A stretch of DNA of 64,000 nt from Imbricaverruca yamaguchii (lineage: Eukaryota; Arthropoda; Thecostraca; Neoverrucidae): assembly GCA_034440575.1 (NCBI GenBank), contig JAOTOL010001636.1, positions 1,026,501-1,090,500 of the forward strand, read 5' to 3'. Shown here piece after piece: positions 3,158 through 58,309 of the stretch. Both the position numbers and the translations under genes were made by a program. Position 1 is the stretch's first letter; each line of letters starts with the position of its first letter. The notes beneath the pieces are model-generated. The model was given only the letters and a program-made list of their open reading frames with translations. It ran no database searches and was not told where the DNA came from.

Positions 3158-3295
3158 GAGATAGGGCGCCGTACGACAAGCACGACTATGGCAAACATGT
3201 GATCGTATGCTCCCAGAAGAGAGCGATCCTCATCATGTGCCTGGTCTTCATTGGCATCCTGGCCATCGCCCTGATCGCCGCCTTCGCCCGACCAA
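3158..3295 (+). CDS. Aminopeptidase exon 1 (first recognised): tail and signal anchor
   Basis: The acceptor TTCACAG precedes it and GTCAGT follows. It encodes a short basic cytoplasmic tail ([17 protein letters not shown]), then about 21 hydrophobic residues ending in AAFARP. CSQKRA next to the membrane helix and ARP just after it are typical of invertebrate M1 ectopeptidases of the aminopeptidase N group. It enters in phase 1 and leaves in phase 1. There is no in-frame ATG ahead of the helix, so the initiator must lie in an earlier exon. Confidence 0.85.
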
Positions 3296-6200
3296 GTCAG
3301 TGCCGGGTCAAAGGCCACAACGAGGCCAAGCCAGCCTTAGTTCAAGTGTGCAGTTTAGCCGCCTCACGGATCCACATACCTTTGACCTGTGCAGCATTTG
3401 GGTTAGTTTCAGAGTCGGGCAGTGTAGGTCCTGATCGACGCCTCGGTGCAAGTCAAAGCAACCTGGCACATTGTGCACGTGCTCAGGCCATGCCGTCTTC
3501 ACTTCATTCCAATGGCGGGAACATTGCTTGGCCTAGGGTGCAGATTTACATAATTTGTGATTGGTATAAGTGTTACGCGTCACCTGTTCTTGCACGATTG
3601 TGTTCTTATGTGCCTCCCCTCACTCCCGTCCGCGTTGGCGACTATCATTTTTCAGTACTGTTCTCTTTGACTACTTCCCGCCAGTTATAGCGTTTGTTCT
3701 TCAACTCCAGGGTGTTCGCGCGAGCAGGGAATTCTGCAAAAACTACTAAATTACACGAAATGTTCAAATGGTAGCAATTTACATTTTCATGACATCGTAT
3801 CTGCATGTTGATTCGTGGCATAGTGTTGGTCCCGGGTAAAGCCCACAATAATACTAAGCTGTTTCCGTTCGCGTTTGCAGCGTGCTTGCCTGGCACTGGT
3901 GTGATACGGCCAACGACGGTGGCGCCTCCGGTGGTGACCCCGCCAACTACGGCGGATGGCGAGCTGTTCCCCTGGGACGACGTGCGTCTGCCACACCACA
4001 TTGTTCCGCACGCATACGCCATTCTGATCCACCCGAATTTGACAACACTAAGTGTAGTCGGTACGTCGATCGGTACGCAAGTTCTTTTAGCTCGCCACCA
4101 GCTATCACGAAATATAATCGATGTCCTGCTATTCTGCTATATACTTAGACTACTATGTGACGTACTACTAAATGTATGTAAGTGAGGAAGTACCTGATAG
4201 CTCTTGGTCGCTATGTCGTGGGTGTGACATCTTAATCGCATAAAGCCGGGTTAACCACAATCAGCAAGTGGTATGTGTTCGAATAATCTCGTACTTTATA
4301 TTCACCAGATCGGTGCAGTTCTTAATGGCATAGGTTTGATGCCGGCCACTGCCGCTCATATGTATGCATGCTGGTGGCCTTGGCTCGTGAAGACTGTTTT
4401 TATTCGCGTCATTACAGGCAAAGTCAGCATCGACTTGTCTGCGCTGGAGGAGGCCAGCTTCATCGTCCTCCACTGCCGCAACATGTCCATCACAGAGAAG
4501 TCTCTGCGCCGCGCCGACAGCTCCGCAAACATCTCCATCTCCACAATGCTACTCTATCCCAAGAGGGACCAGGTGCGTGTGCTGGTGCTCTGCCCGCGGG
4601 CCAGGCGTGTACGTGCTCTGGTGTACGTACTCTGGTGTACGTGCTCTGGTGTACGTGCTCTGGTGTACGTGCTGATGCTCTGTCTGCGGGTCAGGTGTGT
4701 ACGTACTCTGGTGTACGTGCTCTGGTGTACGTACTCTGGTGTACGTACTCTGGTGCACGTACTTTGGTGTACGTGCTGGTGTTCTGCCCGGGGGCCAGGT
4801 ATATATGTGCTCTGTGAACGTGCTAGTGTTCTGTCTGCGGGCCAGGTGTGTACGTGCTGGTGCTCTGCCTGCGGGCCAGGTGTGTACGTGCTGGTGCTCT
4901 GCGGGCCAGGTGTGTACGTGCTGGTCGTGCTTGCTGCGGGCCAGGTGTGTACGTGCTGGTGCTCTGCCTGTGGGCCAGGTGTGTACGTGCTGGTGCTCTG
5001 CCTGTGGGCCAGGTGTGTACGTGCTGGTGCTCTTTGTGGGCCAGGTGTGTACGTGCTGGTGCTCTGCGGGCCAGGTGTGTACGTGCTGGTGCTCTGCGGG
5101 CCAGGTGTGTACGTGCTGGTGCTCTGCGGGCCAGGTGTGTACGTGCTGGTGCTCTGCGGGCAGGTGTACGTGCTGGTGCTCTGCGGGCCAGGTGTGTACG
5201 TGCTGATGCTCTGCCTGTGGGCCAGGTGTGTACGTGCTGGTGCTCTGCCTGTGGGCCAGGTGTGTACGTGCTGGTGCTCTGCGGGCCAGGTGTGTACGTG
5301 CTGGTGCTCTGCGGGCCAGGTGTGTACGTGCTGGTGCTCTGCGGGCCAGGTGTGTACGTGCTGGTGCTCTGCGGGCCAGGTGTGTACGTGCTGGTGCTCT
5401 GCGGGCCAGGTGTGTACGTGCTGGTGCTCTGCCTGTGGGCCAGGTGTGTACGTTCTCCGGTGCAGTTGTTTTGACAGAGCACGCCTCCCTCGTGACTGTG
5501 GACGGCCGCAGCCGCCGTCCGCCGGATGTGTGACGTTCACGGGATGGCTTCATGCTTTTGCTGCAGAAAAAAAGCTGGCGCGAGACCGAGCGCCGCGGTG
5601 TTTGTATGGCCGCACGTCGTTTGCACGTGATGCGGTGTGCGGTGCGACGCGTGCGGCGCTGATTGTGGCCGTGGAGGTCGTGCAGGTGCCGGTGTTATCG
5701 ACACTATACCCAGCGCTGCCGCTATTTCCGACACACTTCTGTTCATTTGTCGGCAAACGATCACCGCGAGAATGGAGGGTACTACGGACACCGTGCAATG
5801 CAGATTGCAAGATAATATAGCTTTTGGAAGGAAATGTCAATTTCATGGGGAAGGTTGTTTTCCAAACTGTGTGATTCGCCACACAATCCTCGATTTTTGG
5901 TGCGCCGGCAAATTCGATAGGTGAAAAATTGAAATGCAGATAATCAATATAGACACAAACACTGGAAGATCCCTTTTGATTATCACATGGATCTACTAGT
6001 GACTATAGACATTTCATTCATACGGATCGTGTTACAGCGGGTATCTAGGAAATCCATTCCATCCGAAAAGAGTGCACATTCAAAGCCATAATCGAAAATT
6101 CGGGCTATATTCCAAGTTTCGCATAGTAATACAATTTTACTGTATGCCTCTGAAAATTAAGGATCATTATCAAGATCATCAAATTTCACTGCAGCCTCAC

Positions 6201-9200
6201 TGGTCAGCAACCGGCCACCCTGCAGTTGTAAGCAGATGTCACCATATTTTACTAGCACAGTGCATAAATACACTACCGTTCCACCGTTTTGCTCCTGCGT
6301 GAGGTGCTCTGCGACACCGCTGAGTATCATTGCCGACATGTAGTCGACTGATGGCGGGATGGTCGTGATGTTCGGATGTTCGGGTGGTCGTGATGTTCGG
6401 GTGGTTGGATGGTCGTGATGTTCGGATGTTCGGATGTTTGGATGTTCGGGTGGCCAGATGGTCGTGATGTCTGGATGTTCGGGTGGCGGATGGTCGTGAT
6501 GTTCGGATGTTCGGATGTTCGGGTGGCCGGATAGTCGTGATGTTCGGATGTTGGGGTGGCCGGATGGTAGTGATGTTCGGATGTTAGGGTGGCCGGATAG
6601 CCGTGATGTTCGGATGTTAGGGTGGTCGGATGGTCGTGATGTTTGTGATGTTCAGATGTTCGGGTAGCCGGATGGTCGTGATGTTCGGATGTTCGGATGG
6701 TTGTATGGTCGAATGGGTGTTCAATGTATGTGTATCAAGTGATCATTTTGGTCTTTTCGCACCTATCCCAGTCAACGTTTGGGATGGATGAAATGACACG
6801 GGAACGTCAATGTCAAACAAAACAGAAAGATGACAGTGATCATCGCGCAAACCAATGGATTGGGAGTGCCTCTTAAGCAAACCGGCATGCTTACTTGGCC
6901 TGTCAAACCAAACACAGCCACTGACGAAGGCAAAGCAATTCCATGTATGTGCCCTCATAAAATCGGAATCCGTAGGCTATCTTCTGACCCCTTTTCCTAA
7001 TGCAATATAATTTAGTCTCTTCGTTATCAAATACGGTAAGTGGCTTCCAGTCGTGCAAGCGCCTTGCCTACATTACCCCGCGTGTTGCAATGTCATGCGC
7101 CGCGCATTTAGAACTGGCGCGAAATGGCCTATCCACAAACAGCGTTTCAAAAAATGTTCGAGCTGTTCGCGAAGGCGCGTGCCTGAACTGTAATGTTTTC
7201 ATCTCGGCTATTGAAACCAAAGCAAACGGGAAATAATCCTGTAACATTTTCCATTATTTACCAATTTTTCACGCTGGCCATGCGTTTTTCTCTTCGCCGA
7301 TTGCACGCATCTGAATGGCAGATTGGACACATCTTCCCTGACACATCCAGACACTTTACCGACACATCTTCTCCGACACATCCAGACACTTTACCGACAC
7401 ATCCTCCCATGCACGTATTACAGGTATCCATATTAATAAAGAAGTTGAGGAGTATGTGTGTGTGGTTGACCGCTATCCTATGAGTGTGAAGTCTGCTGCG
7501 CAGGCAATATTTCCTCGGCAGCAACTCAGGCGAATTTGTCACGTGGCTCATTGCGCAAGTGATAATGCCAGCGACACCCCTGCGGATGCCGCAAGTGACA
7601 ATGCATTCCCGTGTCTGTTTCAGATGTACCTGGGCCTTAGTGAACCGCTCAGACAAGGACAAAACTACTCCCTCGTTTTGAAGTTTTCCTACATATTGAA
7701 GGAAGCATTAGAAGGCTTTTATCTTAGTCACTACGATTCTGCTACCGGCGCAAAAGTGTGAGTTGATAGCTGTGGACTTGCTTAGATGCTTGCTCCCATT
7801 GATATGCAGATTGGTGCCGAGATGTCTGGCTGAATGAAAATGACACGCCTTATCTGGAGTCGTTTTTGCAGCCACCTCAATATGGTTACAGTTAATATTT
7901 TAACATTTACCCTGCACTGTACTTCCGGTCAGATCCTCACTCGGTCTCGGAGGTATCCTCAACGAAAGTGGTGTCCTAGGAAATTGTTCGACGAGTACGG
8001 CCCGAAACCAACCCAAAATGCTCTCCCCTAAAAAGGGACGTCACTAGGGGTATGCGGAATCATGTCTGACGCCATGCTTGTGGCTCTGGGGAGTTCGGTT
8101 TGCTGAAGATTTTAGAATCAAAAATTATTTTGAAACAGGAATTGAATGCAAAGACGACCATGGCCCCAAAATGGACAATGGACCCAAAAATCAACATTTT
8201 AATATTTTGAATATTCAAAGTATAGAGTTTTCAATTTACTTGGTTTTGTCTTTATCTATTGGGTAAAGAACACCGGAAGGCATTGTTTTAAGTCAAGTTG
8301 CCCTCATAAAGTGCCATCTTTAGCCAGAATCTTGATCGCTGTGGGCCATTTATTTACTATCCACAGAAAACCCTGGGGCCCCAAAGCACCCCCCCCGAGA
8401 CAGTTTAGATGTGTGCACAGCACTGTAGCGTATAAACATGAAATATTTGTTATCAGCCCCGTCACCTCCATGGTTAGGTGTTCTTCGTCAAACATTTTAT
8501 GATAGGAAACATTGTAACATTTATTAAATTCATAAAGCATTTTAAAGCCGCACGTCTTGTTCTTACGTCTAACACGATGTTATCTCAGTTCCATCTTCTG
8601 CACTATATGCTAGCCTGACACACTTAGCACTAGCAAGTGGCACAATATTCCCCCACTTTCTGTTATCCTAAAGTTATTAATCATGCCCGTCATAGCTTCA
8701 CACCAAATCCCACGACATCCTCCACAGTACTTGCCTTCAGAGAGCAGCCTATGTTCCCCTCACGGAGTATGATGTTTAGACAGCAGTCTTGTGGAGCATG
8801 ACTTGGCCCACTGGTCGGTTCTTCACCCCACAGGCGGCTGGCGACCACCCAGTGGGCGGGGCATGACTTGGCCCACTGGTCGGCTGTTCACCCCACAGGT
8901 GGCTGGCGACCACACAGCGGGCGGGGCATGACTTGGCCCACTGGTCGGCTCTTCACCCCACAGGCGGCTGGCGACCACCCGGTGGGCGGGGCATGACTTG
9001 GCCCACTGGTCGGCTGTTCATCCCACAGGCGGCTGGCGACCACACAGCGGGCGGGGCATGACTTGGCCCACTGGTCGGCTCTTCACCCCACAGGCGGCTG
9101 GCGACCACCCGGTGGGCGGGGCATGACTTGGCCCACTGGTCGGCTGTTCATCCCACAGGCAGCTGGCGACCACACAGCGGGCGGGGCATGACTTGGCCCA

Positions 9201-9654
9201 CTGGTCGGCTCTTCACCCCACAGGTGGCTGGCGACCACCCAGTTTGAGCCGAACGCGGCTCGTGCGGCGTTCCCGTGTCTGGACGAGCCGCACCTGAAGG
9301 CCACCTTCCAGCTGTCTATGGTGCGCCACCGGAGCCACACGGCGCTGTTCAACGCCATGCTGCGACACACAGAGGACCTGGGCTTCTACCTGGGCGACGG
9401 CATCGTGAGTTCCATGCACGGTGTTCCAGTCGTGCCAGCCTGAGAACAGTCAGCTCGTGTGCCATGGTCTACTGGTGGTGGTCTCTCTCTCCCTCTATCT
9501 CTCTCTCTCTCCCCCCCCCCTCTCTCTCTCTCTGTCTCTGTCTCTGTCTCTGTCTCTGTCTCTGTCTCTGTCTCTGTCTCTGTCTCTGTCTCTGTCTCTG
9601 TCTCTGTCTCTGTCTCTGTCTCTGTCTCTGTCTCTGTCTCTGTCTCTGTCTCTG

Positions 9655-9744
<90 letters not shown>

Positions 9745-12700
9745 TCTCTCTCTCTCTCTTTCTCTTCTCTCCTCTGTGTGTGTGCGTGTGTATGTACGCG
9801 TGCGCGCCATGGTTTCCTGGCGGCGGTTGTGTATGTATGTGTGTCGTGGTTTCTTCATGGTGGTGGTATGTACTTGCTTGCGTGCGTGTGCAGATAGGTG
9901 CATATGTGTTTGTGTATGTGTGCGTATATATGTGCGTGTGTAGGTGTACGACTATGCCTTTGTATGTGCGTACTGTGCGTGTGTGTCACGAGCTCCGTGT
10001 GATGTGGCCATGAAGTAGTGGCAGGAGCCCGTGTGGACACATCCTCGACTGCTTCGAGTCGTGTCGCTTGGCTATCTGATCATCCAGTGACACATCATCC
10101 GAGTTTGAGGGTTATAATCTGCTACGATTCATTGCGAATGTGCTTTCTTTTGTGTGAACTTCTTTCTGAAACAGACTTATGGGGGTTGTTTCAGAAAATG
10201 CGAATAATAGCTTTAAAGTCAATGGATGGTCACAAATGTACATGCTTCGGACTATGGACATCTCGCAACACATGCAATGGTGTCTATCTATGACTAACAA
10301 TTATGATATATACTGGCACTCAGAAACTGCAAAGGATGAGCGAAATGAGATTGCTTTCATCTTGTTCTGCGCTTGTACTAACTGTTTGCTCACCATGATG
10401 TGCTGCAGAAGCAGGACAATTTCCACGAGACCGTCCGAATGTCGACATATCTGGTGGCCTTCATCGTCAGCGACTATCGCCACATATCGGACACAGCCAG
10501 CAACGGTGAGTGCCAGCTCACTACCTACGTCAGTTCATAAATATATACGCCGGGTACTATGCAACCCATAGGATGCATTTCTTGATGGTAACATGCATTC
10601 CTTGATGGTACTTGAGCGGTCAGGCACACTTCTAGTTTTCTAAGTAGCCTGGGAGAATTTGGAAAACTGTCCAAATATGTGTTGTGAAGCTGGCGTTGTA
10701 ATTTGAACCCTACCTCCTGATGACATGTCGCTTGGTTTTGATGAACTTCCTTCGAAAGGTCATCTCTAACAGATCTGGTAGTGTCGGTGACTCATCTGAC
10801 ACTCCAGTGTCCCTGACAGACGTGGTGGTGTCGGTGTGGACTCACCTGACACTCCAGTGTCCCTGACAGACGTGGTGGTGTCGGTGTGGGCTCATCTGAC
10901 ACTCCAGTGTCCCTGACAGACGTGGTGGTGTCGGTGTGGACTCATCTGACACTCCAGTGTCCTGACGAGTGGGGGTGTGGGGTGGCCCCTGACAGACGTG
11001 GTGGTGTCGGTGTGGACTCACCTGACACTCCAGTGTCCCTGACAGACGTGGTGGTGTCGGTGTGGACTCATCTGACACTCCAGTGTCCCTGACAGACGTG
11101 GTGGTGTCGGTGTGGACTCATCTGACACTCCAGTGTCCCTGACAGACGTGGTGGTGTCGGTGTGGGCGCCTCCACACCTGGTACAGCAGGGACAGTTCGC
11201 GCTGGAGGTGGCTGTTAGCTGTCTAGATTTCTACTCAGACTACTTTGGCATACCGTACCAACTGCCCAAAATCGGTGAGTTGTGAGCACTGCCCAGGGGC
11301 AGTGAGTGCTGAATACGGAGCAGACAACGGTGAGTGATTGGCACTGGGCAGACATCAAGTACTGAATGGTCCCAATGAGCAGACAGCGGTGAGTGATGGG
11401 CACTGAGCAGACAACAGTAAGTGCTGAGTGGTCCCACTGAACAGACGGCGGTGAGTGATGGGCACTGAGCAGACAACAGGAAGTACTGAGTGGTCCTACT
11501 GAACAGTGGTGAGTGGTGGGCACTGATCAGACAACAGTAAGTACTGACTGGTGCCACTAAACAGACATCGATGAGTGATGGGCACTGAGCAGACAACAGT
11601 AAGTACTGGGTGGTCCCACTGAACAGACAACAGTAAATACTGAGTGGCCCCACTGAACAGCCAGCGGTGAGTGATGGGCACTGAGCAGAAAACAGTAAGT
11701 ACTGACTGGTGCCACTAAACAGACATCGATGAGTGATGGGCACTGATCAGACAATAGTAAGTACTGAGTGGTGCCACTGAACAGACAGCGGTAAGTGGTG
11801 GGCGCTGAGCAGACAACAGTAAGTACTGAGTGGTGCCACTGAACAGACAGCGGTAAGTGGTGGGCACTGAGCAGACAACAGCAAGTACTGAGTGGTGCCA
11901 CTGAACAGACAGCGGTAAGTGGTGGGCACTGAGCAGACAACAGCAAGTACTGAGTGGTGCCACTGAACAGACAGCGGTAAGTGGTGGGCACTGAGCAGAC
12001 AACAGCAAGTACTGAGTGGTGCCACTGAACAGACAGCGGTAAGTGATGGGCACTGAGCAGACAGCAGTAAGTACTGAGTGGTGCCACTGAACAGACAGCG
12101 GTGAGTGGTGGGCTAACGGTGAGCTTGGTAGCTGGAAACTGCTCTCTCAACTGAGGCCCATGTTCAGCACCGACTGCAGTCAGATGTGGTCGCATGTGAA
12201 GGAAACAAGTGGTGCAATCTGGCATATATTTGCGTGTGACTGTAGTCCACAATATACGGCCCCCGACCTCACGCTTCGGTACCCACCTTGCCAGACTAGC
12301 ACCTCGCGCCAGACAGGATAGACGTGCTGCTTTACACCGACTAAAAATCCGCGTCAGCACGAGCGACAATGGTTGAAAAGTGACGAATCGTCGTGCGACG
12401 TATGGCGCGCGGCGGTGTCAAGTGTCACGTGACCAGCGTACCCCGCTCGGCGCAGACCTGGTGGCCATACCCGACTTCGGCGCCGGAGCGATGGAGAACT
12501 GGGGCCTGGTGACGTTCCGCGACACGTCGCTGCTCTACGACGCAGCCGAGACCAGCAGTGCGTTCAAGGAGTGGGTCACCTTGGTGGTTGCTCACGAGCT
12601 GGCGCACCAGGTGAGCACATGTGCCTCATGTGGTGGTGCCGATCACTGCCGGTCACTGCGGTCAACTGGTCACTGCCGGTCAACTGGTCACTGTTCGTCA

Positions 12701-15700
12701 CTGCGGTCACCTGGTCACTGCCGGTCACTGCGGTTAGCTGGTCACTGCGGTTAACCGGTCACTGCCTGTCAACTGATCACTGCCGGTCACTGTGGTTAAC
12801 TGGTCACTGCCGGTCAACTGGTCACTGTCGGTCACTGCGCCACAGTGTGCCGGTGTGCCATGTCTGTGCCGTACCCTGATCTGGTGCTGACCACGGCTCA
12901 GGACGTCACAATGGCCACTGGACCGCCGGCCGGACTGTGGGTGGACCAGGGCTGGACCATGGTCCTGCCGGTCGTCCACGGCTCAGGTCGTCAGACTGGC
13001 CACTGGACCGCCGGCCACTGTAAATGGTACTTCGGTGACTGGACCATGCGCTACTGCGGTGACTGGTGCTGACGCAACGGCTCAGGACGTCAGACTGGCC
13101 ACTGGACCGCCGGCCAGACTGTTGGTGGACCAAGGCTGGACCATGGTCTGGTGCTGACCACGGCTCAGGACGTCAGACTGGCCACTGGACCGCCGGCCAG
13201 ACTGTTGGTGGACCAGGGCTGGACCATGGTCTGGTGCTGGACCATGGTCTGGTGCTGACCACGGCTCAGGACGTCAGACCGGTCACTGGACCGCCGGCCA
13301 GACTGTTGGTGGACCAGGGACCATGGCTCTCGTTTAGAGCAACTTGGTTTCTGTTCCAATTTGCGTGAGGAACAATTTGGTTTTCAAATTCATCTCCGTA
13401 GGAGCTATTAACCATTATCTAGCTCATTTTCATGGATTGTAACCCCCGTATAATTCCTCAGTGCAAAATGGTGCTTGATATGCCACATGGAAAGGTCTAA
13501 TTGTGTCTGGGTTGTTCTCATTCTTCGGAGACATTTATCCCATTTGCAGGAACAACTACGCCTCCAATTATGATGCGATTAGGAAAACGTAACAAAATAT
13601 CGTCGTTGAAAACGGGCTTCTGACATATCAAGACATACGAAAAGTCCATCAATATATTCGTGAGCTCTCCTAATTGCATCGTGTTTGTAACGTTCGCTGC
13701 TCATGTCAACCGATCATTTGAATCAGCCGAATGAAACGCTGCCACAGTCGGTATAAGGATCACATGTGTACTAATATTGATCGCCTCGACCAGCATGAGC
13801 ACAAGGAGCTTCTCGTTGGTATGGTGGCAAACTCAGCAGTGTTGACCAGGTGGCACCGTGCTCCACCGACAGTGCTGACCTGGTGATGATGTGACCCACC
13901 GACAGTGTTGACCTGGTGATGATGTGACCCACCGACAGTGTTGACCTGGTGATGATGTGACCCACCGACAGTGTTGACCAGGTGGCACCGTGCTCCACCG
14001 AAGTGTTGACCTGGTGATGATGTGACCCACCGACAGTGTTGACCTGGTGATGATGTGACCCACCGACAGTGTTGACCTGGTGATGATGTGACCCACCGAC
14101 AGTGTTGACCTGGTGATGATGTGACCCGCTAGGTAGTGGTTGACCTGGTGATGATGTGACCCACCGACAGTGTTGACCTGGTGATGGTGTACCAGACAGT
14201 GTTGACCTGGTGATGATGTGACCAGTAGTGGTGACCTGGTGATGATGTGACCCACCGACAGTGTTGACCTGGTGATGTGACCCGCTCGGTAGTGGTGACC
14301 TGGTGATGATGTGACCCGCTAGGTAGTGGTGACCTGGTGATGATGTGACCCGCTAGGTAGTGGTGACCTGGTGATGATCTGACCCGCTAGGTAGTGGTGA
14401 CCTGGTGATGATGTGACCCGCTCGGCAGTAGATGATGTGACCCGTTCGATAGTGGTGAACTGGTGACATTGTGATCTGTTCTGAAGTGGAAACCTACTCA
14501 CAATTTGACCCTCTGAGTAGTGGTGACTTCGTCACAATGTGATCTGTTCGTTAGAAGTCGTCTGGTGATAATATAACCCGTTCGGTAGAGGTGACCCGGT
14601 GACCATGTGACTGATTCTGCCTGCAGTGGTTTGGTAACCTGGTGACCATGAAATGGTGGAACGATCTCTGGTTAAACGAAGGGTTCGCCACGCTGATGGA
14701 ATTCATTGGGGCTGGAAACGCCAAACCGGAATTCCACATGTCTCAGCAAGTGAGTGGGTGGTTAGTGGCTTTGAGATGACCCACGTCCCTCTGCTGCCAA
14801 AAAGAAGCAAGAAAAACGCATATGAGTAAACAACCACATGAGAGATCACATATTGCGAAGATAATTGGCCCAATAATTTCTTAGTTTGGGAATTCATAAT
14901 CATTGCAAGAAAGCATTAGAACTCAATTTGAGTTAGGTATAGTCACAAAATATAAATTGTGAACTATTTTGTTGGACAAGTCAGCATTTGCGGAAGGGAA
15001 ATTTGTCATTTAAAAAGTGTATTACAAGCGGCTCCTTTGTTCCAGTTGCATCAACGCGTTGTATAACCTGTGATAGGGTCAGCCACTGCACACTATTCCA
15101 TATGGCTTGAGCTAGAATAGCAACAGTATTAACACAAGGAATTTAGCAGTAAATACCAACCACACGAACACCCTGGACGATATGCTGGTCGCCTAGCCTC
15201 ATTTTCATTCTTCGGTGCAGATTTTGGATGCGTCGTTTTTGTTGCGGTATCTGAATATACTGTGAAAAGCACAACAAAAAGAGGAAGTTGACGCAATCGC
15301 ACCTGGGTTTCGTTAATACAACACACGTATTTGTTTCTTAACGGTGCGGCACTATGTTTGCACCGAACTATTTGCATTCCTCACACACTAAATGCAAGGA
15401 CCGAAGATTATTCAGCCGCCTTTGCTGTGACTTGTCAAATTTAGCTGTCGACACAGTTCACTTTTCTTGGCCAGAAACACGCTGAATGCAAGACTCAGTG
15501 TAATGCAGTTTCACTCACTCAATACCATGCAGTCTGATTCCGGCGCCGTGTGCACTGCAGTTCCTGCTGAAGGCCTCGATGACGGCCCTCTCACTGGACA
15601 GCCTGCGGGACTCTCACCCCATCTCGGTGCCTGTCGCCGATCCAGACGAGATTGAGTCAATCTTCGACGTCATCTCATACAGCAAGGTGCGCTGACCAAT

Positions 15701-18700
15701 TGCACGCGCTGTTGACGTTCGAGCACCGACCTCAACTCATACCGCTGCACCAAAGCACACGAGGTCAATTGATGCCGCTCGCTCCGGGCACACGAGGTCA
15801 ACTGGTACCGCTGCACCAATACACACTCGACATCGTTACTGGTTGTCTCGGGCGGCCTGGGACCGACGAGGTCAACTGACTGGCTGGTGATCACCTGGCG
15901 TCTGTTGCGGCTCCATAAGTCTCCGCCAGGCAGATGTGTGGCCAACTCTACTGCCACTGCGCACGGCAACCATCTGTGCGGAGATGACGTCAGGGAAACC
16001 TGAATAGGGTGTCGAAAAACCTGTAGATGTTTGCTGCATTGTGAGGCTGTGGCAGTGGTAAGCAAACGGCACTGGGCATGAGTCCGATATATTCACTTGG
16101 GTTCTCGTTGTCACGGGCCACATTGTTTCGGTCCAGACGCTGGTGACTGCTGCCAATCATGTCAGCAGTGTATTCTATCTGGAACAGAGCTTACGATGCT
16201 CCGGGTTAGCCAGACTGAGACTGCCATCTGGTGGTCAGCGGCCGGTACCAGTGCTTCAGTTGACGACGTCGTGGTGTCGCTGTGCAGGGCGCCGCCCTGC
16301 TGTACATGCTGATGAAGGAGCTCGGCCAGCCCGTCTTCAGGGCCGGTCTGCGCATCTACTTGAACGGGCACATGTTCGCCAACGCCCAGACGGACGACCT
16401 GTGGGCGGCCATTCAGGAGGCCAGCCAGGTTGCCGCCGACTCTGAGGTGGACGATGGAGAAGCAAGTCACCAACCGTTCGACATCAAGGTGCGTCCGTCA
16501 GCACACCACAGACCATCTCGTCTCAACGTCATCGCTCAGCCACGCGGCCGCGGCGTCCTACACCTGATGTTTGATCCAACTTGACCCCATCATTCATTTG
16601 CGAGATATATACACCGACCATGAAATACAACATGATCACCTTCTTGACATATCTCTTCACCAGCAGACCTAACCTCCTTGTCGTCAAGCACTTGATGCGG
16701 CTTGCCAGCAGGCAAACACAATCCCCATTACGTCACCATTAGACGCAACCTCCCAGTTGTCCAGCGTTCAATCCGACCCGCTAGCAATCAAACACGATCC
16801 GTATCACATCAGCATCAGACATAAGCTCCCAGTCGCCAAACGTTTGACACAACTCTCCGGCAATCGGACAGCGATCAGAACAGCAGTCCCAAGAGTCTCG
16901 CGCACTGCATCCGCCGACGATCAGACATAGTCCCACCATCATCAGACACAGTCTTCATAGTCCTCCAACACAACCACCTCTAACAACCAGACATAGCCCC
17001 ACCACCATCAGATAGTCTTCACAGTCGTCCAACATAACCACCCCTCGAAACAAATCCATAGTCGTACAACGAAACCTCCAACAATCGTCCCGATGCGTCA
17101 GGACATCATAGTGGACTCAGAAACATATCCAGAGGAACTACCCGGTGACCGTCTCCCGATGCGTGTGCAGGCCATGATGGACTCGTGGACGCTGCAGAAG
17201 AACTACCGGTGACCGCCCGATGCGTGTGCAGGCCATGATGGACTCGTGGACGCTGCAGAAGAACTCCCGGTGACCGTCCCGATGCGTGTGCAGGCCATGA
17301 TGGACTCGTGGACGCTGCAGAAGAACTACCCGGTGACCGTCTCCCGATGCGTGTGCAGGCCATGATGGACTCGTGGACGCTGCAGAGGAACTACCCGGTG
17401 ACCGTCTCCCGATGCGTGTGCAGGCCATGATGGACTCGTGGACGCTGCAGAGGAACTACCCGGTGACCGTCTCCCGATGCGTGTGCAGGCCATGATAGAC
17501 TCGTGGACGCTGCAGAAGAACTACCCGGTGACCGTCTCCCGATGCGTGTGCAGGCCATGATGGACTCGTGGACGCTGCAGAAGAACTACCCGCTGGTGAC
17601 GGCGACCGTGTCGGCCGGACGTATGACACTCAGTCAGTCGCCCTTCCTGATGCTGGTGAACGGGTCGGTGGCGACGACTGCGCCCGAGCCGCGCTGGTAC
17701 GTGCCGATCCGCTGTCGGCTCCACCGGCTCAGTCGGGTGCTGTCCGTCCGACTCAACAATACACAGAGTGAGTACGACTCTCTGACCCGAGAGCACACGC
17801 TGTGAGTGCCATTATCTGACTGAACAAGATTCGGTGAGCTCCGCTCTCCGTTTCGACCAGGCAGAGATTGAGTACCTTTCTCCGTAGGGGACCTGATGAA
17901 TCCTGACTCAGAATATTAGTTTCGGATCGACTGGAATATGAATAGTTATGACACAAGTAATTGATGGGCACTAATATTAGGAACGCTGGAGCTGTCTGGA
18001 TACTTGCACGTCCCAATTTAAAAATACGGAAGTTTGACGTCAATCAGGGTCCGGACGATGTATTACGCGGCAAAGGCGCCTTGCTGACTCACGCTACACT
18101 ACACTTAATTGTTAATAATCCCAAATAGTCATTATAACTTAACTGTAGTTTGACGAAAATGTAACTTGTTGACTTTTCACCTTTTCAAAAGAGATTTGAG
18201 CCAGAGCGATGGGGCAGACAATGGCCTACTTGCGGAGGACTGGCTGAAGATCAGAACATCAACAAGAACAGCAACAAAATATCAAACATGGTGCTGTGTC
18301 CATGGTGCACTCCGTGGTGTTATCCTAGCGCGTCTCCGATTATATCACACAAGAATAACCCATTGCTATTTGATAACAGATAGTCCCGTTCGGCATGGAA
18401 CCCTGAAATCCAACCTTCAAACTCAACCTTTGAATCCAACATTCAATCTAACCTTTCAATCCATTCAGCACCTCTCGCTGCATTGTCCATCATTCCTAGC
18501 GCTTACATTTCACTGTCCATTACCCCCAACGTAGCGCCGCATCGTCATGAACCACATCCAATGAAACCTGACAGCTGTTTAGGGCAATGACTTCCCGGGT
18601 CCTCTCTATCTTCTCTCTGTATATTCAAGATCGGCTGAGCTGAGCCAGTGCATTAGGCAGTTGCGTTTTCTGCGTTTTATCGCACACATAACGACCTACC

Positions 18701-19215
18701 TCGGCATGTGCATGGGAGTTTCCCCAGCATCACAGGCGTATGCCTCCTTCTGACCTGTGGCGTGTTCTCAATGCTTGGTGAAGTACTTTGTATGGACTAA
18801 CGCTATGAACAAGACAGCTAGCATTTATAATGTCGGGGCCGAAGTGTCGGAGCTGAGACTGGCGGGAACCCGACCGGTAAAGGTGGCGCTGCGATCGGCG
18901 CCGAGTGATGGCGCCACCTGAGATTGGTGGGATGACCGCTTCTGGACATGGCGAGCATGGTGTGGCATCTCTTCACATCGGCCACGTCGTCACTCAGTAA
19001 CGGCGTGCGGCGCCGTCGGCGTCCACAGCCGCGTCCGTGGCGATAGCCAGCCAGCCCGACTGGTACTACTGCAACCTGAACAAGACGGGCCTGTACCGGG
19101 TGACGTACCCGGCCGCCAACTGGGCGGCACTGGGCGACCTCCTGCTGAACGGCTCCGCCCAGCTGACGGTGCAGGACCGCGCCGCCGTCCTGGACGACGC
19201 CTTCAGTCTCAACAG
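3158..19215 (+). CDS. M1 zinc aminopeptidase (aminopeptidase N / glutamyl aminopeptidase-like), 13 exons, partial
   Basis: This encodes a type II membrane ectopeptidase that removes N-terminal residues from extracellular peptides. I join 3158-3295, 3881-4060, 4418-4572, 7624-7757, 9224-9404, 10409-10505, 11146-11274, 12456-12610, 14627-14749, 15561-15686, 16288-16488, 17554-17767 and 19029-19215, about 673 residues in all. Every internal junction has GT-AG and matching phase. Order seen: cytoplasmic tail and membrane anchor, N-terminal beta domain, GAMENWG, HELAH with E after 18 residues, the transition-state Tyr in the SYSKG context, then the TGLYRV strand and a DDAF motif. The start codon exon and the ERAP1-type C-terminal helical domain (roughly 300-350 residues in the family) are not visible. 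Without the gluzincin subgroup's diagnostic residues checked in a structure, I do not assign substrate preference. At least six introns carry arrays fused to a splice site. Confidence 0.93.
3296..3880 (+). other. Aminopeptidase intron 1
   Basis: The donor GTCAGT at 3296 and acceptor TTTGCAG ending at 3880 define a 585-nt intron. No repeat array or other gene is seen in it. Confidence 0.8.
3881..4060 (+). CDS. Aminopeptidase exon 2: stalk and start of N-terminal domain
   Basis: A Pro/Thr-rich extracellular stalk ([11 protein letters not shown]) is followed by [19 protein letters not shown] and [11 protein letters not shown], the classic start of the M1 N-terminal beta domain. The acceptor TTTGCAG precedes it and the donor GTACGT follows. 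Phase 1 in, phase 1 out. NLT is a potential N-glycosylation site. Confidence 0.95.
4061..4417 (+). other. Aminopeptidase intron 2
   Basis: 357-nt intron bounded by GTACGT and CATTACAG. No repeat array is seen. Confidence 0.8.
4418..4572 (+). CDS. Aminopeptidase exon 3: N-terminal beta domain
   Basis: Encodes [19 protein letters not shown], matching the family pattern of an amphipathic strand followed by IVLH, and ends in LLYPKRDQ. Phase 1 in, phase 0 out. The donor follows CCAG. The reading frame stays open through the whole adjacent repeat array because its unit is 30 bp. Confidence 0.93.
4566..5455 (+). repeat. 30-bp minisatellite starting exactly at the intron 3 donor
   Basis: Some 28-30 units of about 30 bp (core GTGTGTACGTGCTGGTGCTC) start at the exon 3/intron 3 boundary. 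Each unit ends GGGCCAG and is followed by GTGTGT, imitating the true junction GGGACCAG followed by GTGCGT. A shorter 12-15 bp sub-repeat (TGGTGTACGTGCTC) dominates 4610-4770. The array is open in the exon 3 frame, so intron retention would append a long Val/Leu/Cys-rich tail rather than stop at once. Confidence 0.9.
5456..6329 (+). other. Intron 3, non-repetitive part
   Basis: No exon-like segment with M1 similarity lies here. The neighbouring exon peptides join plausibly without one (YPKRDQ to MYLGLSEPL). Confidence 0.5.
6340..6725 (+). repeat. GATGGTCGTGATGTTCGG-type minisatellite in intron 3
   Basis: Irregular tandem copies of about 25-45 bp built from GATGTTCGG, GGTGGCCG and ATGGTCGTGAT. 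The array is internal to the intron and does not touch a splice site. Confidence 0.85.
6726..7623 (+). other. Intron 3, distal part
   Basis: Mostly unique sequence, with a short duplicated segment at about 7330-7400 (GACACATCCAGACACTTTAC occurs twice). It ends in the exon 4 acceptor TGTTTCAG. Confidence 0.6.
7624..7757 (+). CDS. Aminopeptidase exon 4: N-terminal domain
   Basis: Encodes [19 protein letters not shown] and [15 protein letters not shown], the M1 'G-x-Y ... GFY-S-Y ... G' block. Phase 0 in. I place the donor at GTGAGT (7758), giving phase 2 out, because this joins to the next exon as [10 protein letters not shown], the expected family sequence. Confidence 0.95.
7758..8790 (+). 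other. Intron 4, non-repetitive part
   Basis: No gene is seen. There is a run of C at about 8390. The intron continues into the acceptor-bearing array. Confidence 0.6.
8791..9241 (+). repeat. 65-bp minisatellite carrying the exon 5 acceptor and exon start
   Basis: Seven copies with strict 65-bp spacing, each containing a 3' splice site (TTCACCCCACAG or TTCATCCCACAG) followed by a copy of the exon 5 start (G[CT]GGCTGGCGACCAC). The AG dinucleotides end at 8833, 8898, 8963, 9028, 9093, 9158 and 9223. Only the last runs on into exon 5. Alternate units share GGCTC or GGCTG before TTCA, so a 130-bp higher-order unit is visible. Confidence 0.95.
9224..9404 (+). CDS. Aminopeptidase exon 5: N-terminal domain
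   Basis: Encodes [18 protein letters not shown] and [11 protein letters not shown], the highly conserved M1 block that precedes the catalytic domain. Phase 2 in, phase 0 out, with donor GTGAGT. Its first 18-19 nt are repeated in the array upstream. Confidence 0.95.
9478..9765 (+). repeat. (TCTCTG)n and (CT)n microsatellite in intron 5
   Basis: A CT tract with a C-run is followed by about 23 TCTCTG hexamers and then a pure CT tract to about 9738, with CACACA interruptions after it. It is strongly pyrimidine-rich on the plus strand. The long Ser/Leu and Arg/Glu frames here are artefacts. Confidence 0.97.
10409..10505 (+). CDS. Aminopeptidase exon 6: N-terminal domain end
   Basis: Encodes [19 protein letters not shown], the conserved [11 protein letters not shown] block. 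The acceptor is TGCTGCAG (10408); an alternative acceptor six bases downstream (AAGCAG) keeps the frame and drops two residues. Phase 0 in, phase 1 out, with donor GTGAGT. Confidence 0.93.
10506..10795 (+). other. Intron 6, non-repetitive part
   Basis: No feature other than a short direct repeat (GCATTTCTTGATGGTA / GCATTCCTTGATGGTA) near 10575-10610. Confidence 0.5.
10796..11168 (+). repeat. 50-bp minisatellite carrying the exon 7 acceptor and exon start
   Basis: Seven acceptor copies (GTGTCCCTGACAG followed by ACGTGGTGGTGTCGGTGTGG). The AG ends at 10819, 10869, 10919, 10995, 11045, 11095 and 11145. Spacing is 50 bp except one irregular 76-bp step. About 20 nt of each unit duplicate the start of exon 7. 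Reading on from any upstream acceptor in the coding frame gives a TGA (in CCCTGACAG) within the first unit. Confidence 0.95.
11146..11274 (+). CDS. Aminopeptidase exon 7: start of catalytic domain
   Basis: Encodes [19 protein letters not shown] and [17 protein letters not shown], the conserved VWAP ... LDFY..YFGIPY-LPK block. Phase 1 in, phase 1 out. The acceptor is the last of seven tandem copies, and the donor (GTGAGT) is the first of about 20 similar sites, so this exon is flanked on both sides by splice-site arrays. Confidence 0.95.
11275..12117 (+). repeat. ~60-62-bp minisatellite repeating the intron 7 donor
   Basis: About 14 units. Each carries CGGTGAGTG or CGGTAAGTG, and most also carry CAGTAAGTACTGAG. 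The first unit begins at the authentic donor of exon 7. By hand I count about 20 GTGAGT or GTAAGT hexamers. Unlike the acceptor arrays it shares only a couple of exon bases (CG) and is otherwise intronic. Confidence 0.92.
12456..12610 (+). CDS. Aminopeptidase exon 8: GAMEN and HELAH
   Basis: Encodes [28 protein letters not shown] and [14 protein letters not shown] binds the substrate N-terminus; the two His of HELAH bind zinc and its Glu is the general base. All these residues are intact. Phase 1 in, phase 0 out. The intron falls directly after HELAHQ. Confidence 0.97.
12635..13330 (+). repeat. Two adjoining minisatellites in intron 8
   Basis: 12635-12845 holds about ten short units built on GGTCACTGCCGGTCAACTG. 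12880-13330 holds five longer units of roughly 70-100 bp built on GGACCGCCGGCCAGACTG, CTGGACCATGGTCTGGTGC and CACGGCTCAGGACGTCAGAC. They begin about 25 nt after the exon 8 donor. I see no exon-derived segment in them. Confidence 0.85.
13331..13834 (+). other. Intron 8, non-repetitive part
   Basis: AT-richer unique sequence between two arrays; no feature recognised. Confidence 0.5.
13835..14626 (+). repeat. 33-34-bp degenerate minisatellite upstream of exon 9, resembling the exon start
   Basis: About 22 units built on GACCTGGTGATGATGTGACC with CAGTGTT, and later GTAGTGGT, at the unit junction. The true boundary reads CTGCAG, then TGGTTTGGTAACCTGGTGACCATG in two pieces: TGGTTTGGTAACC and TGGTGACCATGAAATGG. 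The last intronic unit (14587-14610) reads GTGACCCGGTGACCATGTGA, intermediate between the array and the exon. I infer the array descends from copies of this acceptor and exon start. Confidence 0.8.
14627..14749 (+). CDS. Aminopeptidase exon 9: third zinc ligand
   Basis: Encodes [20 protein letters not shown]. The Glu of NEG lies 18 residues after HELAH and is the third zinc ligand. The exon ends in EFHMSQQ. Phase 0 in and out, with acceptor CTGCCTGCAG and donor GTGAGT. Confidence 0.97.
14750..15560 (+). other. Aminopeptidase intron 9
   Basis: 811-nt intron, AT-richer than the exons; no array or gene seen. Confidence 0.7.
15561..15686 (+). CDS. Aminopeptidase exon 10: catalytic Tyr
   Basis: Encodes [14 protein letters not shown] and IFDVISYSK, the family's 'SHPI ... 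FD-ISY-KG' block. The Tyr in ISYSK is at the position of the transition-state-stabilising tyrosine. Phase 0 in and out, with donor GTGCGC. Confidence 0.95.
15687..16287 (+). other. Aminopeptidase intron 10 with a short degenerate repeat
   Basis: Between about 15722 and 15880 the motif GAGGTCAACTG with CCGCTGCACCAA recurs about four times at roughly 40-bp spacing. The rest is unique. The acceptor is TCGCTGTGCAG. Confidence 0.65.
16288..16488 (+). CDS. Aminopeptidase exon 11: end of catalytic domain
   Basis: Encodes [13 protein letters not shown], then [20 protein letters not shown] and a variable acidic linker ending QPFDIK. It matches the KGA..L.ML ... YL..+.F.NA.T.DLW family block. Phase 0 in and out, with donor GTGCGT. 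Confidence 0.96.
16489..17131 (+). other. Intron 11, proximal part
   Basis: A loose, degenerate repetition of CAGACATAGTC / CCACCATCATCAGACAC type motifs occurs at about 16890-17010. No gene is seen. Confidence 0.5.
17132..17592 (+). repeat. 65-bp minisatellite carrying the exon 12 acceptor and first 39 exon bases
   Basis: Seven acceptors (CCCGATGCGTGTGCAG followed by GCCATGATGGACTCGTGGAC) whose AG ends at 17170, 17231, 17293, 17358, 17423, 17488 and 17553. Steps are 61, 62, then 65 four times. Each unit is 39 nt copied from the start of exon 12 plus 26 nt that begin GTGACC and end GTGCAG. From an upstream acceptor, reading into the next unit in the coding frame meets TGA at CCATGATGG. Confidence 0.95.
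17554..17767 (+). CDS. Aminopeptidase exon 12: start of C-terminal beta domain
   Basis: Encodes [15 protein letters not shown] (family 'MD-WT-Q-GYP-V'), [14 protein letters not shown], and [14 protein letters not shown]. Phase 0 in and phase 1 out with donor GTGAGT. NGS and NNT are possible N-glycosylation sites. Its first 39 nt are present in multiple copies upstream. Confidence 0.92.
17768..19028 (+). other. Aminopeptidase intron 12
   Basis: 1261-nt intron. No array or additional M1 exon is recognised. The spacing between the flanking peptides is shorter than in many homologues, so a small missed exon cannot be excluded. Confidence 0.5.
19029..19215 (+). CDS. Aminopeptidase exon 13: last recognised exon
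   Basis: Encodes [29 protein letters not shown] and [14 protein letters not shown], the M1 'N...TG-YRV-Y ... DRA.+LDDAF.L' block. It enters in phase 1 and leaves in phase 2 with donor GTCGGT. No following exon with the expected C-terminal helical domain is recognised in the remaining 44.8 kb. Confidence 0.92.
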
Positions 19216-19440
19216 GTCGGTCTGGGGTGGACCCCCCCCCCACCCCCACCCCTCCGCCCAGCTGACGGCGCAGGACCGTCCTGGACGACGCCTTCAGTCT
19301 CAACAGGTCGGTCTGGGATGGACCCACCTCCTCCCCCCACCCCTCCGCCCAGCTGACGGTGCAGGACCGCGCCGCCGTCCTGGACGACGCCTTCAGTCTC
19401 AACAGGTCTGTCTGGAATGCACCCCCCCCCTCCTCCTCCC
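19155..19440 (+). repeat. Triplicated exon 13 end and donor
   Basis: The segment from CTCCGCCCAGCTGACGG to AACAG followed by GTC[GT]GTCTGG occurs three times, with donors at 19216, 19307 and 19406 (steps 91 and 99). The middle copy lacks 8 bp in the exon-derived part. Copies 2 and 3 are preceded by C-rich tracts and CCCAG, so each looks like a small complete exon (45 and 53 nt). The whole stretch is open in the exon 13 frame to 19465. Confidence 0.92.
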
Positions 19441-23288: not shown

Positions 23289-23627
23289 ATGCTTCAGCAG
23301 ATCCTATTACTCTTATGTCTGACTGTGGTAGCCTCTGCAGTCATCAAGGACAATCCAGACGCCCTGGAGATCATATTTGTCAAGCTGGATAAGGATAAAA
23401 GCGGACATCTCTGGGTGGATGATTTCATATCAGATTCTACGGCAGATGATGCATACTATCCGCTTTTTACTTTGGATGCCCTCAAAGCCATGGATAAAAA
23501 TTCCGATAGACGTGTGGACATGGCCGAATTTAAGCGATCCGCAACTACTCTGCTGAAGGGCTTGCTCCGCGCAAGTATCCAACAGATTGCAGATGAATTG
23601 ATCCCGATCTTTTACCAGTTGCCGTGA
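23289..23627 (+). CDS. Small secreted EF-hand protein, gene A
   Basis: An intact single-exon frame of 112 residues. Residues 1-17 (MLQQILLLLCLTVVASA) form a clear signal peptide. EF-hand loop 1 is DKDKSGHLWVDD, with Asp at loop position 12. EF-hand loop 2 is DKNSDRRVDMAE, with Asp, Asn, Asp, Asp and Glu at ligand positions 1, 3, 5, 9 and 12. An amphipathic C-terminal helix follows (ASIQQIADELIPIF). I infer a secreted calcium-binding protein; the specific role is unknown. It is the most divergent member of a family with copies at 35, 46 and 58 kb. The ATG chosen is the one that starts the signal peptide. Confidence 0.88.
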   Translation: MLQQILLLLCLTVVASAVIKDNPDALEIIFVKLDKDKSGHLWVDDFISDSTADDAYYPLFTLDALKAMDKNSDRRVDMAEFKRSATTLLKGLLRASIQQIADELIPIFYQLP

Positions 23628-24955: not shown

Positions 24956-26455
24956 GAACATGACGGGCTGGCCCGGCGCTGCCAGTCGGGCTGACGGTGA
25001 CCATCTCCCCTCGGCCGGACCAGTCGGGCTGACGGTGACCGTCTCCCCTCGGCCGGACCAGTCGGGCTGACGGTGACCGTCTCCCCTCGGCCGGACCAGT
25101 CGGGCTGACGGTGACCGTCTCCCCTCGGCCGGACCAGTCGGGCTGACGGTGACCGTCTCCCCTCGGCCGGACCAGTCGGGCTGACGGTGACCGTCTCCCT
25201 CGGCCGGACCAGTCGGGCTGACGGTGACCGTCTCCCTCGGCCGGACCAGTCGGGCTGACGGTGACCGGCTCCCCTCGGCCGGACCAGTCGGGCTGACGGT
25301 GACCGTCTCCCCTCGGCCGGACCAGTCGGGCTGACGGTGACCGTCTCCCCTCGGCCGGACCAGTCGGGCTGACGGTGACCGTCTCCCCTCGGCCGGACCA
25401 GTCGGGCTGACGGTGACCGTCTCCCCTCGGCCGGACCAGTCGGGCTGACGGTGACCGTCTCCCCTCGGCCGGACCAGTCGGGCTGACGGTGACCGTCTCC
25501 CTCGGCCGGACCAGTCGGGCTGACGGTGACCGTCTCCCTCGGCCGGACCAGTCGGGCTGACGGTGACCGTCTCCCTCGGCCGGACCAGTCGGGCTGACGG
25601 TGACCGTCTCCCTCGGCCGGACCAGTCGGGCTGACGGTGACCGTCTCCCTCGGCCGGACCAGTCGGGCTGACGGTGACCGTCTCCCCTCGGCCGGACCAG
25701 TCGGGCTGACGGTGACCGTCTCCCCTCGGCCGGACCAGTCGGGCTGACGGTGACCGTCTCCCCTCGGCCGGACCAGTCGGGCTGACGGTGACCGTCTCCC
25801 CTCGGCCGGACCAGTCGGGCTGACGGTGACCGTCTCCCCTCGGCGCTGCCAGTCGGGCTGACGGTGACCGTCTCCCCTCGGCCGGACCAGTCGGGCTGAC
25901 GGTGACCGTCTCCCCTCGGCCGGACCAGTCGGGCTGACGGTGACCGTCTCCCCTCGGCCGGACCAGTCGGGCTGACGGTGACCGTCTCCCTCGGCCGGAC
26001 CAGTCGGGCTGACGGTGACCGTCTCCCTCGGCCGGACCAGTCGGGCTGACGGTGACCGTCTCCCCTCGGCCGGACCAGTCGGGCTGACGGTGACCGTCTC
26101 CCCTCGGCCGGACCAGTCGGGCTGACGGTGACCGCCTCCCCTCGGCCGGACCAGTCGGGCTGACGGTGACCGTCTCCCCTCGGCCGGACCAGTCGGGCTG
26201 ACGGTGACCGTCTCCCCTCGGCCGGACCAGTCTGGCTGACGGTGACCGTCTCCCCTCGGCGCTGCCAGTCAGGCTGACGGTGACCGTCTCCCCTCGGCCG
26301 GACCAGTCGGGCTGACGGTGACCGTCTCCCCTCGGCCGGACCAGTCAGGCTGACGGTGACCGTCTCCCCTCGGCCGGACCAGTCTGGCTGACGGTGACCG
26401 TCTCCCCTCGGCCGGACCAGTCTGGCTGACGGTGACCGTCTCCCCTCGGCCGGAA
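24956..26455. repeat. 38-bp minisatellite, about 40 copies
   Basis: A 1.5-kb array of a 37/38-bp unit (core GTCGGGCTGACGGTGACCGTC and GGCCGGACCA). The 37-bp variant lacks one C in CTCCCCTCGG. These length variants alter frame, yet the minus strand stays open for 545 residues. I regard that as compositional (Pro/Arg/Gly), not a gene. It shares the 15-mer CGGTGACCGTCTCCC with the array at the exon 12 acceptor. Confidence 0.95.
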
Positions 26456-34354: not shown

Positions 34355-34665
34355 TCCTTCTTGTACCAACGGCTAGAAGTGAGCAGTTCCCGTACCTGCG
34401 TATTTTATATATTCACACACATATAGCTGGTTGTAGTTCCCGTACCTGCGTATTTTCACACATATAGGGCGGAGTGTTTTCCCCTCCATGCCGCATATTC
34501 ACACATATAGGGCTAGTTGTAGTTCTCGTGCATACTGTATATTCACACCCATAGGGCTGGTTGTAGTTCCCATACGTGCTGTTTGCTAACACCTATAGTG
34601 CTGGGTGCACTTCCGGTGCATGCTGTATATTCACACACATATAGGGCTGGTTGCAAAACACGTAG
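34355..34665. repeat. ~55-60-bp tandem repeat downstream of EF-hand gene B
   Basis: Units with GGTTGTAGTTCCCGTAC, TATATTCACACACATATAGGGCT. The same family, inverted, follows gene C (46370-46800) and gene D (58310-58640). Confidence 0.8.
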
Positions 34666-38899: not shown

Positions 38900-39130
38900 A
38901 AATGGGCCCGACCGTAATAGCGCTAACGACTACCTCGGAGCTAATATGCCGACTACCGTAATTGAGTTAACGACTACCCAGCAGCTAATATGCTGCCGAC
39001 CGAAATAGCACTATCGACTACCTAGCAGCTAATATGCTGACGACCGAAATAGGGTACCGACTACCTAGCAGCTAATATGCTGGCGACCGAAATAGGACTA
39101 TCAACTACCTAGTAGCTAATATGCTGATGT
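38900..39130. repeat. 44-45-bp tandem repeat, short version
   Basis: About five units containing GACTACCTAGCAGCTAATATG and CTGACGACCGAAATAGG. Inverted counterpart at 48255-49110, where it is much longer. Confidence 0.85.
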
Positions 39131-45783: not shown

Positions 45784-46155
45784 ATGTTCAGGCATATTAT
45801 TCCACTCTTGTGCCTGCTGGTGGCAGCTTCGGCGGTTCTCGGTCCCAGTCGAGATATTGTAAAAATTATGTATAAAAAACTGGACACCGATGGCACTCCT
45901 GGCATAACCAACAAAGATTTCTTGGGGCCACCAACCGACGATAACCGAATGGCAAGAAGCTACATCGACTACGCAGTTGGACTGCTGGATGCAAACAATG
46001 ACGATTTTGTCAACCTCGACGAGTTTAGAAAAGATCCATTCGTCATATTAGCAAGCGTGGCTCAGGCAGTCATTCAACGCGTTGCAGACCGCACCATCGC
46101 CGCCGTCATTCCCCGCGACAAGAAGCCCCCTCAGCCGCCTCCACTGTCACATTGA
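45784..46155 (+). CDS. Small secreted EF-hand protein, gene C
   Basis: A single-exon frame of 123 residues. MFRHIIPLLCLLVAASA is a signal peptide. EF-loop 1 is DTDGTPGITNKD, with Pro at the usual Gly and Asp at position 12, so binding may be weak. EF-loop 2 is DANNDDFVNLDE, with ligands at positions 1, 3, 5, 9 and 12. A hydrophobic-amphipathic helix (SVAQAVIQRVADRTIAAVI) and a Pro/Lys-rich tail (DKKPPQPPP) follow. An in-frame extension to 45682 exists but lies across the TATA box, so I start at 45784. I infer an extracellular Ca2+-binding protein of unknown role. Confidence 0.88.
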   Translation: MFRHIIPLLCLLVAASAVLGPSRDIVKIMYKKLDTDGTPGITNKDFLGPPTDDNRMARSYIDYAVGLLDANNDDFVNLDEFRKDPFVILASVAQAVIQRVADRTIAAVIPRDKKPPQPPPLSH

Positions 46156-58081: not shown

Positions 58082-58309
58082 ACCTTGGCTTCAGCTTCAA
58101 TGTTGCATATGTTTAAAACACGATGATAGTTGATTTCGTGCACGACAGCGGCTGAAATATCCCGTGTTCTCCTCATGTGTAACGAGACTGGGTACACGCA
58201 GTACATGTATTCATGAAGTGTTTCGTGATTGATAAACCAGCAATCCAACTGTCACTTGTATCTGGTGTAACGGCCGAATTTAAATGGTGTGACGGACTTC
58301 CTGTTTTGC

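Follow-up and report, generated by a model that had tools for sequence, protein, structure and literature searches.

Tandem repeat arrays crowd the introns of one gene of the barnacle Imbricaverruca yamaguchii, and several of them run across exon–intron borders, which raises the question of whether splice junctions attract such arrays, benefit from them, or simply tolerate them. An earlier note on this DNA had taken the arrays as the product of a recurrent process acting at exon edges. We reexamined them in the same window, i.e., the whole analyzed stretch of 64,000 nucleotides, beginning with the exon model of the gene.

Joining 13 exons between positions 3158 and 19215 of the forward strand gives an open frame of 672 codons, with GT/AG at 12/12 complete introns. 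The exons, each based on the open spliced frame and tblastn, are as follows.

Exons 1–5 of the aminopeptidase gene: 3158–3295, 3881–4060, 4418–4572, 7624–7757, and 9224–9404, forward strand.
Exons 6–10 of the aminopeptidase gene: 10409–10505, 11146–11274, 12456–12610, 14627–14749, and 15561–15686, forward strand.
Exons 11–13 of the aminopeptidase gene: 16288–16488, 17554–17767, and 19029–19215, forward strand.

The gene is predicted to encode an M1 aminopeptidase of the ERAP1/2 type (ERAP1/2-like). In the 672-codon model, Pfam places the M1 N-terminal domain (PF17900) and the catalytic domain (PF01433) above cut-off, and the ERAP1-type C-terminal domain (PF11838) is matched over the first 48 of its 318 positions only (score 37.7 vs. 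a cut-off of 38.2). Both GAMENWG and HELAHQ...NEGFA are present, conforming to the GAMEN and HEXXH...E motifs of M1 aminopeptidases. The top solved-structure matches are chains named endoplasmic reticulum aminopeptidase 1 and cover model residues 65–671. Among the best 120 relatives of at least 7985 candidates scored, the top two are both barnacle proteins, with 67% over the full query for Amphibalanus amphitrite and 76% over 81% of it for Pollicipes pollicipes, and the remaining 118 lie at 40–48%. Aligned relatives cover the exon borders at 12/12 positions for Amphibalanus, 12/12 for the crab Portunus, and 10/12 for Pollicipes, whose protein omits introns 1 and 2 because they lie outside its extent. 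All alignment gaps are internal to exons (exons 1, 11, and 12 for Amphibalanus and exon 11 for Pollicipes) and none falls on a border, the closest one stopping 5 residues ahead of intron 11 in Amphibalanus. The least conserved border is that of intron 12, where acceptor 19029 was picked by reading frame; acceptor 18998 was rejected for exon 13 because it breaks the frame, which the in-phase site at 19029 restores. A start-codon exon was not located in the window by tblastn and a narrow motif search, and the C-terminal approximately 300 residues (after approximately 766 in Amphibalanus) gave only chance-level matches (E ≥ 3.4) in the 44.8 kb past exon 13 (19216–64000). For this missing C-terminal third, the gene may be truncated, may be broken by a wrong join, or may have a very long intron 13.

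At 7 of the 25 splice sites of this model (13 donors and 12 acceptors), in 7 of the 13 introns, the exon-side unit of a tandem array is the authentic splice junction. Arrays that carry copies of an exon–intron border are known from amphioxus as “mirage” minisatellites, a precedent that the earlier note had pointed to and that is indeed in print (PMC3087553, PMC3902484). The arrays listed below confirm, on an exon model supported by relatives, its placement of arrays on the junctions of introns 3, 4, 6, 7, 11, and 13 and, in degenerate form, of intron 8, and also its observation that both donors (three: D3, D7, and D13, numbered by intron) and acceptors (four: A4, A6, A8, and A11) are affected. 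Five arrays are unmistakable (D3, A4, A6, A11, and D13), and A8 is degenerate as described, but so is D7, which had been presented as a clear case. Of the unit lengths previously given (30, 50, 60, 65, 33, and approximately 95 bp), that of intron 7 needs correction, the unit there measuring 62 bp and consisting of two halves of approximately 30 bp.

4565–5453, forward strand: D3 mirage of intron 3, 30–34 bp unit, 20 units with CAG/GT, inner part with a 14 bp sub-repeat.
6357–6715, no strand assigned: array of intron 3 off any junction, one of the 8 among 15 arrays of the gene that lie off junctions.
8796–9243, forward strand: A4 mirage of intron 4, 65 bp unit in 7 copies, each with 20 nt of exon 5.
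10789–11165, forward strand: A6 mirage of intron 6, 50 bp unit in approximately 8 copies, mostly with 20 nt of exon 7; two units incomplete.
11273–12113, forward strand: D7 mirage of intron 7, 62 bp double unit, degenerate next to the exon.
13863–14653, forward strand: A8 degenerate mirage of intron 8, unit of approximately 33 bp, of which approximately 27 nt resemble the start of exon 9.
17130–17592, forward strand: A11 mirage of intron 11, 65 bp unit in 7 copies, each with 39 nt of exon 12.
19154–19433, forward strand: D13 mirage of intron 13, 91–99 bp unit in 3 copies, each with approximately 62 nt of exon 13.

The copied junctions are seen directly when a 60-base window at each splice site is compared with the intron it borders, after exclusion of the 30 intron bases that the window itself contains, and, as controls, with the other introns. 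Own-intron scores were 52–120 for D3, A4, A6, A11, and D13 and 13–31 for the other 20 sites, and control maxima were 18–33 per window (33 for the A6 and A10 windows). Because the controls reach 33, this scoring leaves D7 (26) and A8 (31) undecided. Compared directly with their own arrays, D7 is the best of 13 donors and A8 the best of 12 acceptors in 4/4 settings, and 0/1000 random windows, drawn from a more AT-rich part, reached their array scores in any setting; D7 calls for caution in that donor 6 scores 25 against its 26 in one setting and donors share a consensus. The own-intron matches of donor 1 (25), donor 11 (24), and donor 10 (23) were left uncounted as lying within the background (other-intron maxima of 18–33). 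At E 1e-4, none of the gene's arrays has sequence relatives in other parts of the window. The arrays are thus independent, mutually unrelated families and not one expanding family, just as had been proposed; an introner-like or mobile element was rejected as their source, with no array family common to several introns found within the window at the same threshold.

The units differ widely in how they straddle the junction. Per unit, approximately 4–8 nt (D3), 20 nt (A4), 20 nt (A6), approximately 2 nt (D7), approximately 27 nt (A8), 39 nt (A11), and 62 nt (D13) derive from the exon, so that the 18–53 nt formerly stated for introns 4, 6, 11, and 13 must be corrected, and the array ends sit 2–62 nt within the exon, off the splice site itself. 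The exon share of the unit ranges from approximately 0.06 to approximately 0.82 and fits a random, uniform cut (KS statistic 0.20, P 0.88, n = 7, with rough values for D3, D7, and A8). Cut points that fit random placement argue against a mechanism that recognizes the junction.

Among units above the score threshold, authentic unit included, the splice dinucleotide is intact in 20/20 (D3), 7/7 (A4), 7/8 (A6), 7/7 (A11), and 3/3 (D13), a total of 44/45 for the five clear arrays; the degenerate arrays have it in 12/20 (D7) and 13/21 units (A8), or 25/41 together. Splice-site columns are kept slightly better than the rest of the unit in 4/4 arrays measured (0.98–1.00 vs. 0.92–0.97, a descriptive comparison). 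At the level of the predicted protein, the exon stretches duplicated by six of the arrays (all but D7) are not degraded, since 48/60 of their residues are identical to Amphibalanus (342/506 elsewhere) and 49/60 to Pollicipes (367/482 elsewhere). A search for yUnAy branch sites at the mirage acceptors revealed no common pattern. As a separate observation, the residues at the mirage border of intron 4 (7757/9224) are VW, a pair found in 0/96 pattern-fitting homologues (of the best 120), of which 64/96 have RY; in the A4 array, the second border codon is CGG, not TGG, in 4/7 units.

Splicing to the inner copies would mostly destroy the protein. When inner copies are substituted singly into the model (chosen by exact motif, hence intact sites only, which leaves 9 for A8), 57/65 give a stop or a frame shift, a frame loss that is shown in the model; exon 13 being its terminal exon, the two D13 copies were assessed by whether the extra 91 and 190 nt are divisible by three, which neither is. 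Downstream, the frame stays open for 8/65 copies, all of them in intron 3. The claim that only the outermost site yields a full protein is therefore correct for those 57 copies but not for 8 of the 21 inner donors of intron 3.

That junctions have been copied at all exceeds chance. Whether junctions attract arrays is a separate matter and depends on what chance would produce in this gene. Arrays with a unit of at least 20 bp cover 36% of the gene's intron bases compared to 12% of the rest of the window, indicating that the gene as a whole is repeat-prone. Arrays occupy a fraction of 0.19 of the intron bases in the 50 nt next to an exon, a somewhat low value since the repeat finder misses the degenerate edges of D7 and A8, vs. 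0.35–0.43 deeper in the intron. GC content is 0.598 in exons, 0.567 in the first 50 intron bases, and 0.46–0.49 deeper. A null model that drops whole arrays into introns and asks how often they end no more than 5 bp from a splice site (0.4–4% per array, which would make the joint chance very small) was set aside as wrong, since the units contain exon sequence. Instead, each array was reduced to one founder unit and placed randomly over the gene, wholly exonic founders were discarded, and junction-spanning ones were counted. The 15 arrays were obtained by visually merging Tandem Repeats Finder rows, and a single unit length was adopted when the program reported more than one period; the array at 12858–13319 was taken as a 101 bp unit, and a 6-bp array at 9482 is counted among the 15.

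Seven of these 15 arrays span a junction (5/15 in a strict count without D7 and A8), and 8/15 touch none. Uniform placement predicts 1.54/15 (P 0.00026 for 7 and P 0.013 for 5), and placement matched for GC content within 0.06 predicts 3.13/15 (P 0.0085 for 7 and P 0.15 for 5). Removal of three short or two-copy arrays leaves 7/12 against 1.43 under uniform (P 0.00012) and 3.10 under GC-matched placement (P 0.0076). Varying the gene span (three choices) and the GC tolerance (five) gave GC-matched expectations of 2.2–3.4, with P values of 0.0016–0.014 for 7 and 0.045–0.20 for 5, all of these founder-test P values being optimistic because the gene was selected for looking striking. The remaining approximately two-fold excess over the GC-matched expectation may be real or may come from this choice of gene.

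Our preferred reading, to which we assign a probability of roughly two in three, is that these mirage minisatellites arose as repeats ordinarily do, in a gene that is GC-rich and prone to repeats, and that those spanning a junction were tolerated. Slippage or unequal exchange would yield a tandem duplicate of a 30–95 bp segment, with no influence of the splice site on its location. Founders inside an exon would usually be lost by selection, and the gene would survive those in an intron or across a junction, the latter because one copy stays joined to the complete exon, so that neither that exon nor its splice site is damaged. A tolerated founder could then expand on the intron side into an array, and the GC-rich exon edges would take more founders. 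The outermost junction would stay in use by the spliceosome, as suggested by the conserved open frame and most simply via exon definition, given that the real exons measure 97–214 bp and any inner copy would elongate the exon. Short exons in long introns favor exon definition. In Pollicipes pollicipes, mean exon and intron lengths are 241 bp and 2,077 bp, respectively (PMC8917513). The founding event, its neutrality, and the role of exon definition are inferred. In favor of this reading, arrays are common in introns, do not rise near exons, lie off junctions in 8/15 cases, and show cuts that fit a random position, approximately 3 spanning arrays are expected once GC content is matched, the copied exon parts are intact in sequence, and amphioxus mirages are reported to leave the mRNA undisturbed (PMC3087553, PMC3902484). 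Against ordinary birth, the seven spanning arrays amount to approximately twice the GC-matched expectation and are well above the uniform one, and the slightly better kept splice-site columns (a descriptive comparison) go beyond what a purely neutral view requires.

These same counts bear on the idea that splice junctions are hot spots of tandem duplication, e.g., because replication stalls or transcription-linked structures occur at exon borders. Such hot spots would account for the excess of seven spanning arrays over both expectations (P 0.00026 uniform and P 0.0085 GC-matched), which persists without the short or two-copy arrays (P 0.00012 and 0.0076), and for unrelated units at donors as well as acceptors. 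However, the strict count of five fits the GC-matched expectation (P 0.15), array cover drops to 0.19 next to the exon (first 50 intron bases), the cut points of the units appear random, and the gene was selected for its striking look. The process acting at exon edges that had been proposed is thus not borne out, and we regard a hot spot as unlikely. Even more doubt attaches to an inflation of the junction repeats by assembly or phasing artefacts, which strikes us as very unlikely: Tandem arrays are difficult to assemble, and the contig may hold a wrong join because the C-terminal third of the aminopeptidase is missing downstream, but seven distinct arrays with internal sequence variation each have an intact outer junction, and the window is without any N, although copy numbers may still be wrong.

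That nearly all units of the clear arrays (44/45, a count that includes the authentic five) have an intact dinucleotide could also mean that the copies are retained for splicing, with equal competing sites tuning the output of full-length enzyme, and the 57/65 frame-breaking inner copies could indeed lower it. Yet any motif persists in young, homogenized arrays, the degenerate arrays retain only 12/20 and 13/21 intact sites, and the amphioxus reports describe normal mRNA (PMC3087553, PMC3902484), so that we give this role a slightly smaller chance than an artefact. The least probable reading in our view is that the arrays are left over from the origin of the introns themselves, through tandem duplication of exonic AGGT-bearing sequence. 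Tandem duplication is an accepted route to introns (PMC3443670) and mirages have been proposed as its feedstock (PMC3087553), but the donor window resembles its own acceptor window above background in 0/12 introns (scores 10–16; 132 other donor–acceptor pairings have a mean of 12.4 and a maximum of 19). Furthermore, the arrays of introns 3, 4, 6, 7, 8, and 11 sit at one end, 283–2170 bp from the opposite splice site. Beyond this gene, we consider it doubtful that barnacle genes generally grow junction minisatellites well above the rate set by base composition, with the spliceosome routinely picking among many equal sites.

The closest known parallels are the mirages of amphioxus. These are likewise tandem copies across an exon–intron border, at donors or acceptors of Adh3, the globins Gb6 and Gb9, PGBD5, and troponin C, with units of 10–72 bp (Adh3), 60 and 108 bp (PGBD5), and 150–160 bp (globins), AG/GT in many copies, and an mRNA reported as undisturbed (PMC3087553, PMC3902484). 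Amphioxus Adh3 is also reported to vary in copy number and to be somatically unstable. The barnacle aminopeptidase shares both the boundary-spanning units with exon sequence (7/25 sites, two of them degenerate) and the presence of AG/GT in many but not all copies (44/45 and 25/41). It differs in its host, a barnacle, and in having seven affected junctions in a single gene. The passages on amphioxus give one border per globin (in two globins) and two arrays in PGBD5, and the range of unit lengths in Adh3 suggests several mirages there; because they leave the number for Adh3 unstated, the density of seven per gene cannot be claimed as unmatched. Intron gain under the AGGT model also starts when a stretch bearing splice signals is duplicated in tandem (PMC3443670), whereas here donor and acceptor are unlike each other and arrays lie at one end of an existing intron. 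Ordinary intronic minisatellites are similarly GC-rich with unique units of approximately 30–100 bp, as in the 8 junction-free arrays of this gene, but a mirage unit includes exon sequence and the splice site. Our search of the open-access literature gave no report of barnacle mirages and, judged by title, reports from amphioxus only for mirages at splice sites; the word minisatellite is absent from the main texts of the barnacle genome papers examined. Mirages are known in amphioxus, and what is new here is the phylum and the many affected junctions in one gene.

Mirage minisatellites thus extend beyond lancelets and can strike 7 of the 13 introns of one gene. The locus is a natural experiment that offers the spliceosome approximately 20 near-equal donors (intron 3) and 7–8 near-equal acceptors (introns 4, 6, and 11), with the protein kept, few exceptions apart, only by the outermost site, which makes the gene suitable for measuring the strictness of exon definition. 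The arrays also constitute material for the proposed route from mirage to new intron, and if a barnacle-wide excess were true, an arthropod would join the lancelets in having exon edges as hot spots of tandem duplication.

Elsewhere in the window, three small proteins have a secretion-signal-like start by eye. The one at 23289–23627 has weak EF-hand matches below Pfam cut-offs and gave no homologue in a protein search, the one at 45784–46155 matched no Pfam family, and the one at 57719–58081 resembles the latter by eye. A LINE-like element at 50025–55781 has an endonuclease ORF (PF14529) flanked by zinc-knuckle-like and reverse-transcriptase-like ORFs (by eye); when scanned, two neighboring ORFs gave no Pfam match. 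The array at 24982–26454 is a very uniform one of a 38-bp unit (39 copies, 98% match) with no recognized gene attached. Two dispersed satellite families of approximately 44 bp occur at 34408–34653, 46376–46647, and 58309–58612 and at 38908–39127, 48252–48342, and 48620–49114, respectively. Their copies lie in either orientation, in contrast to the arrays of the aminopeptidase gene, which are unique.
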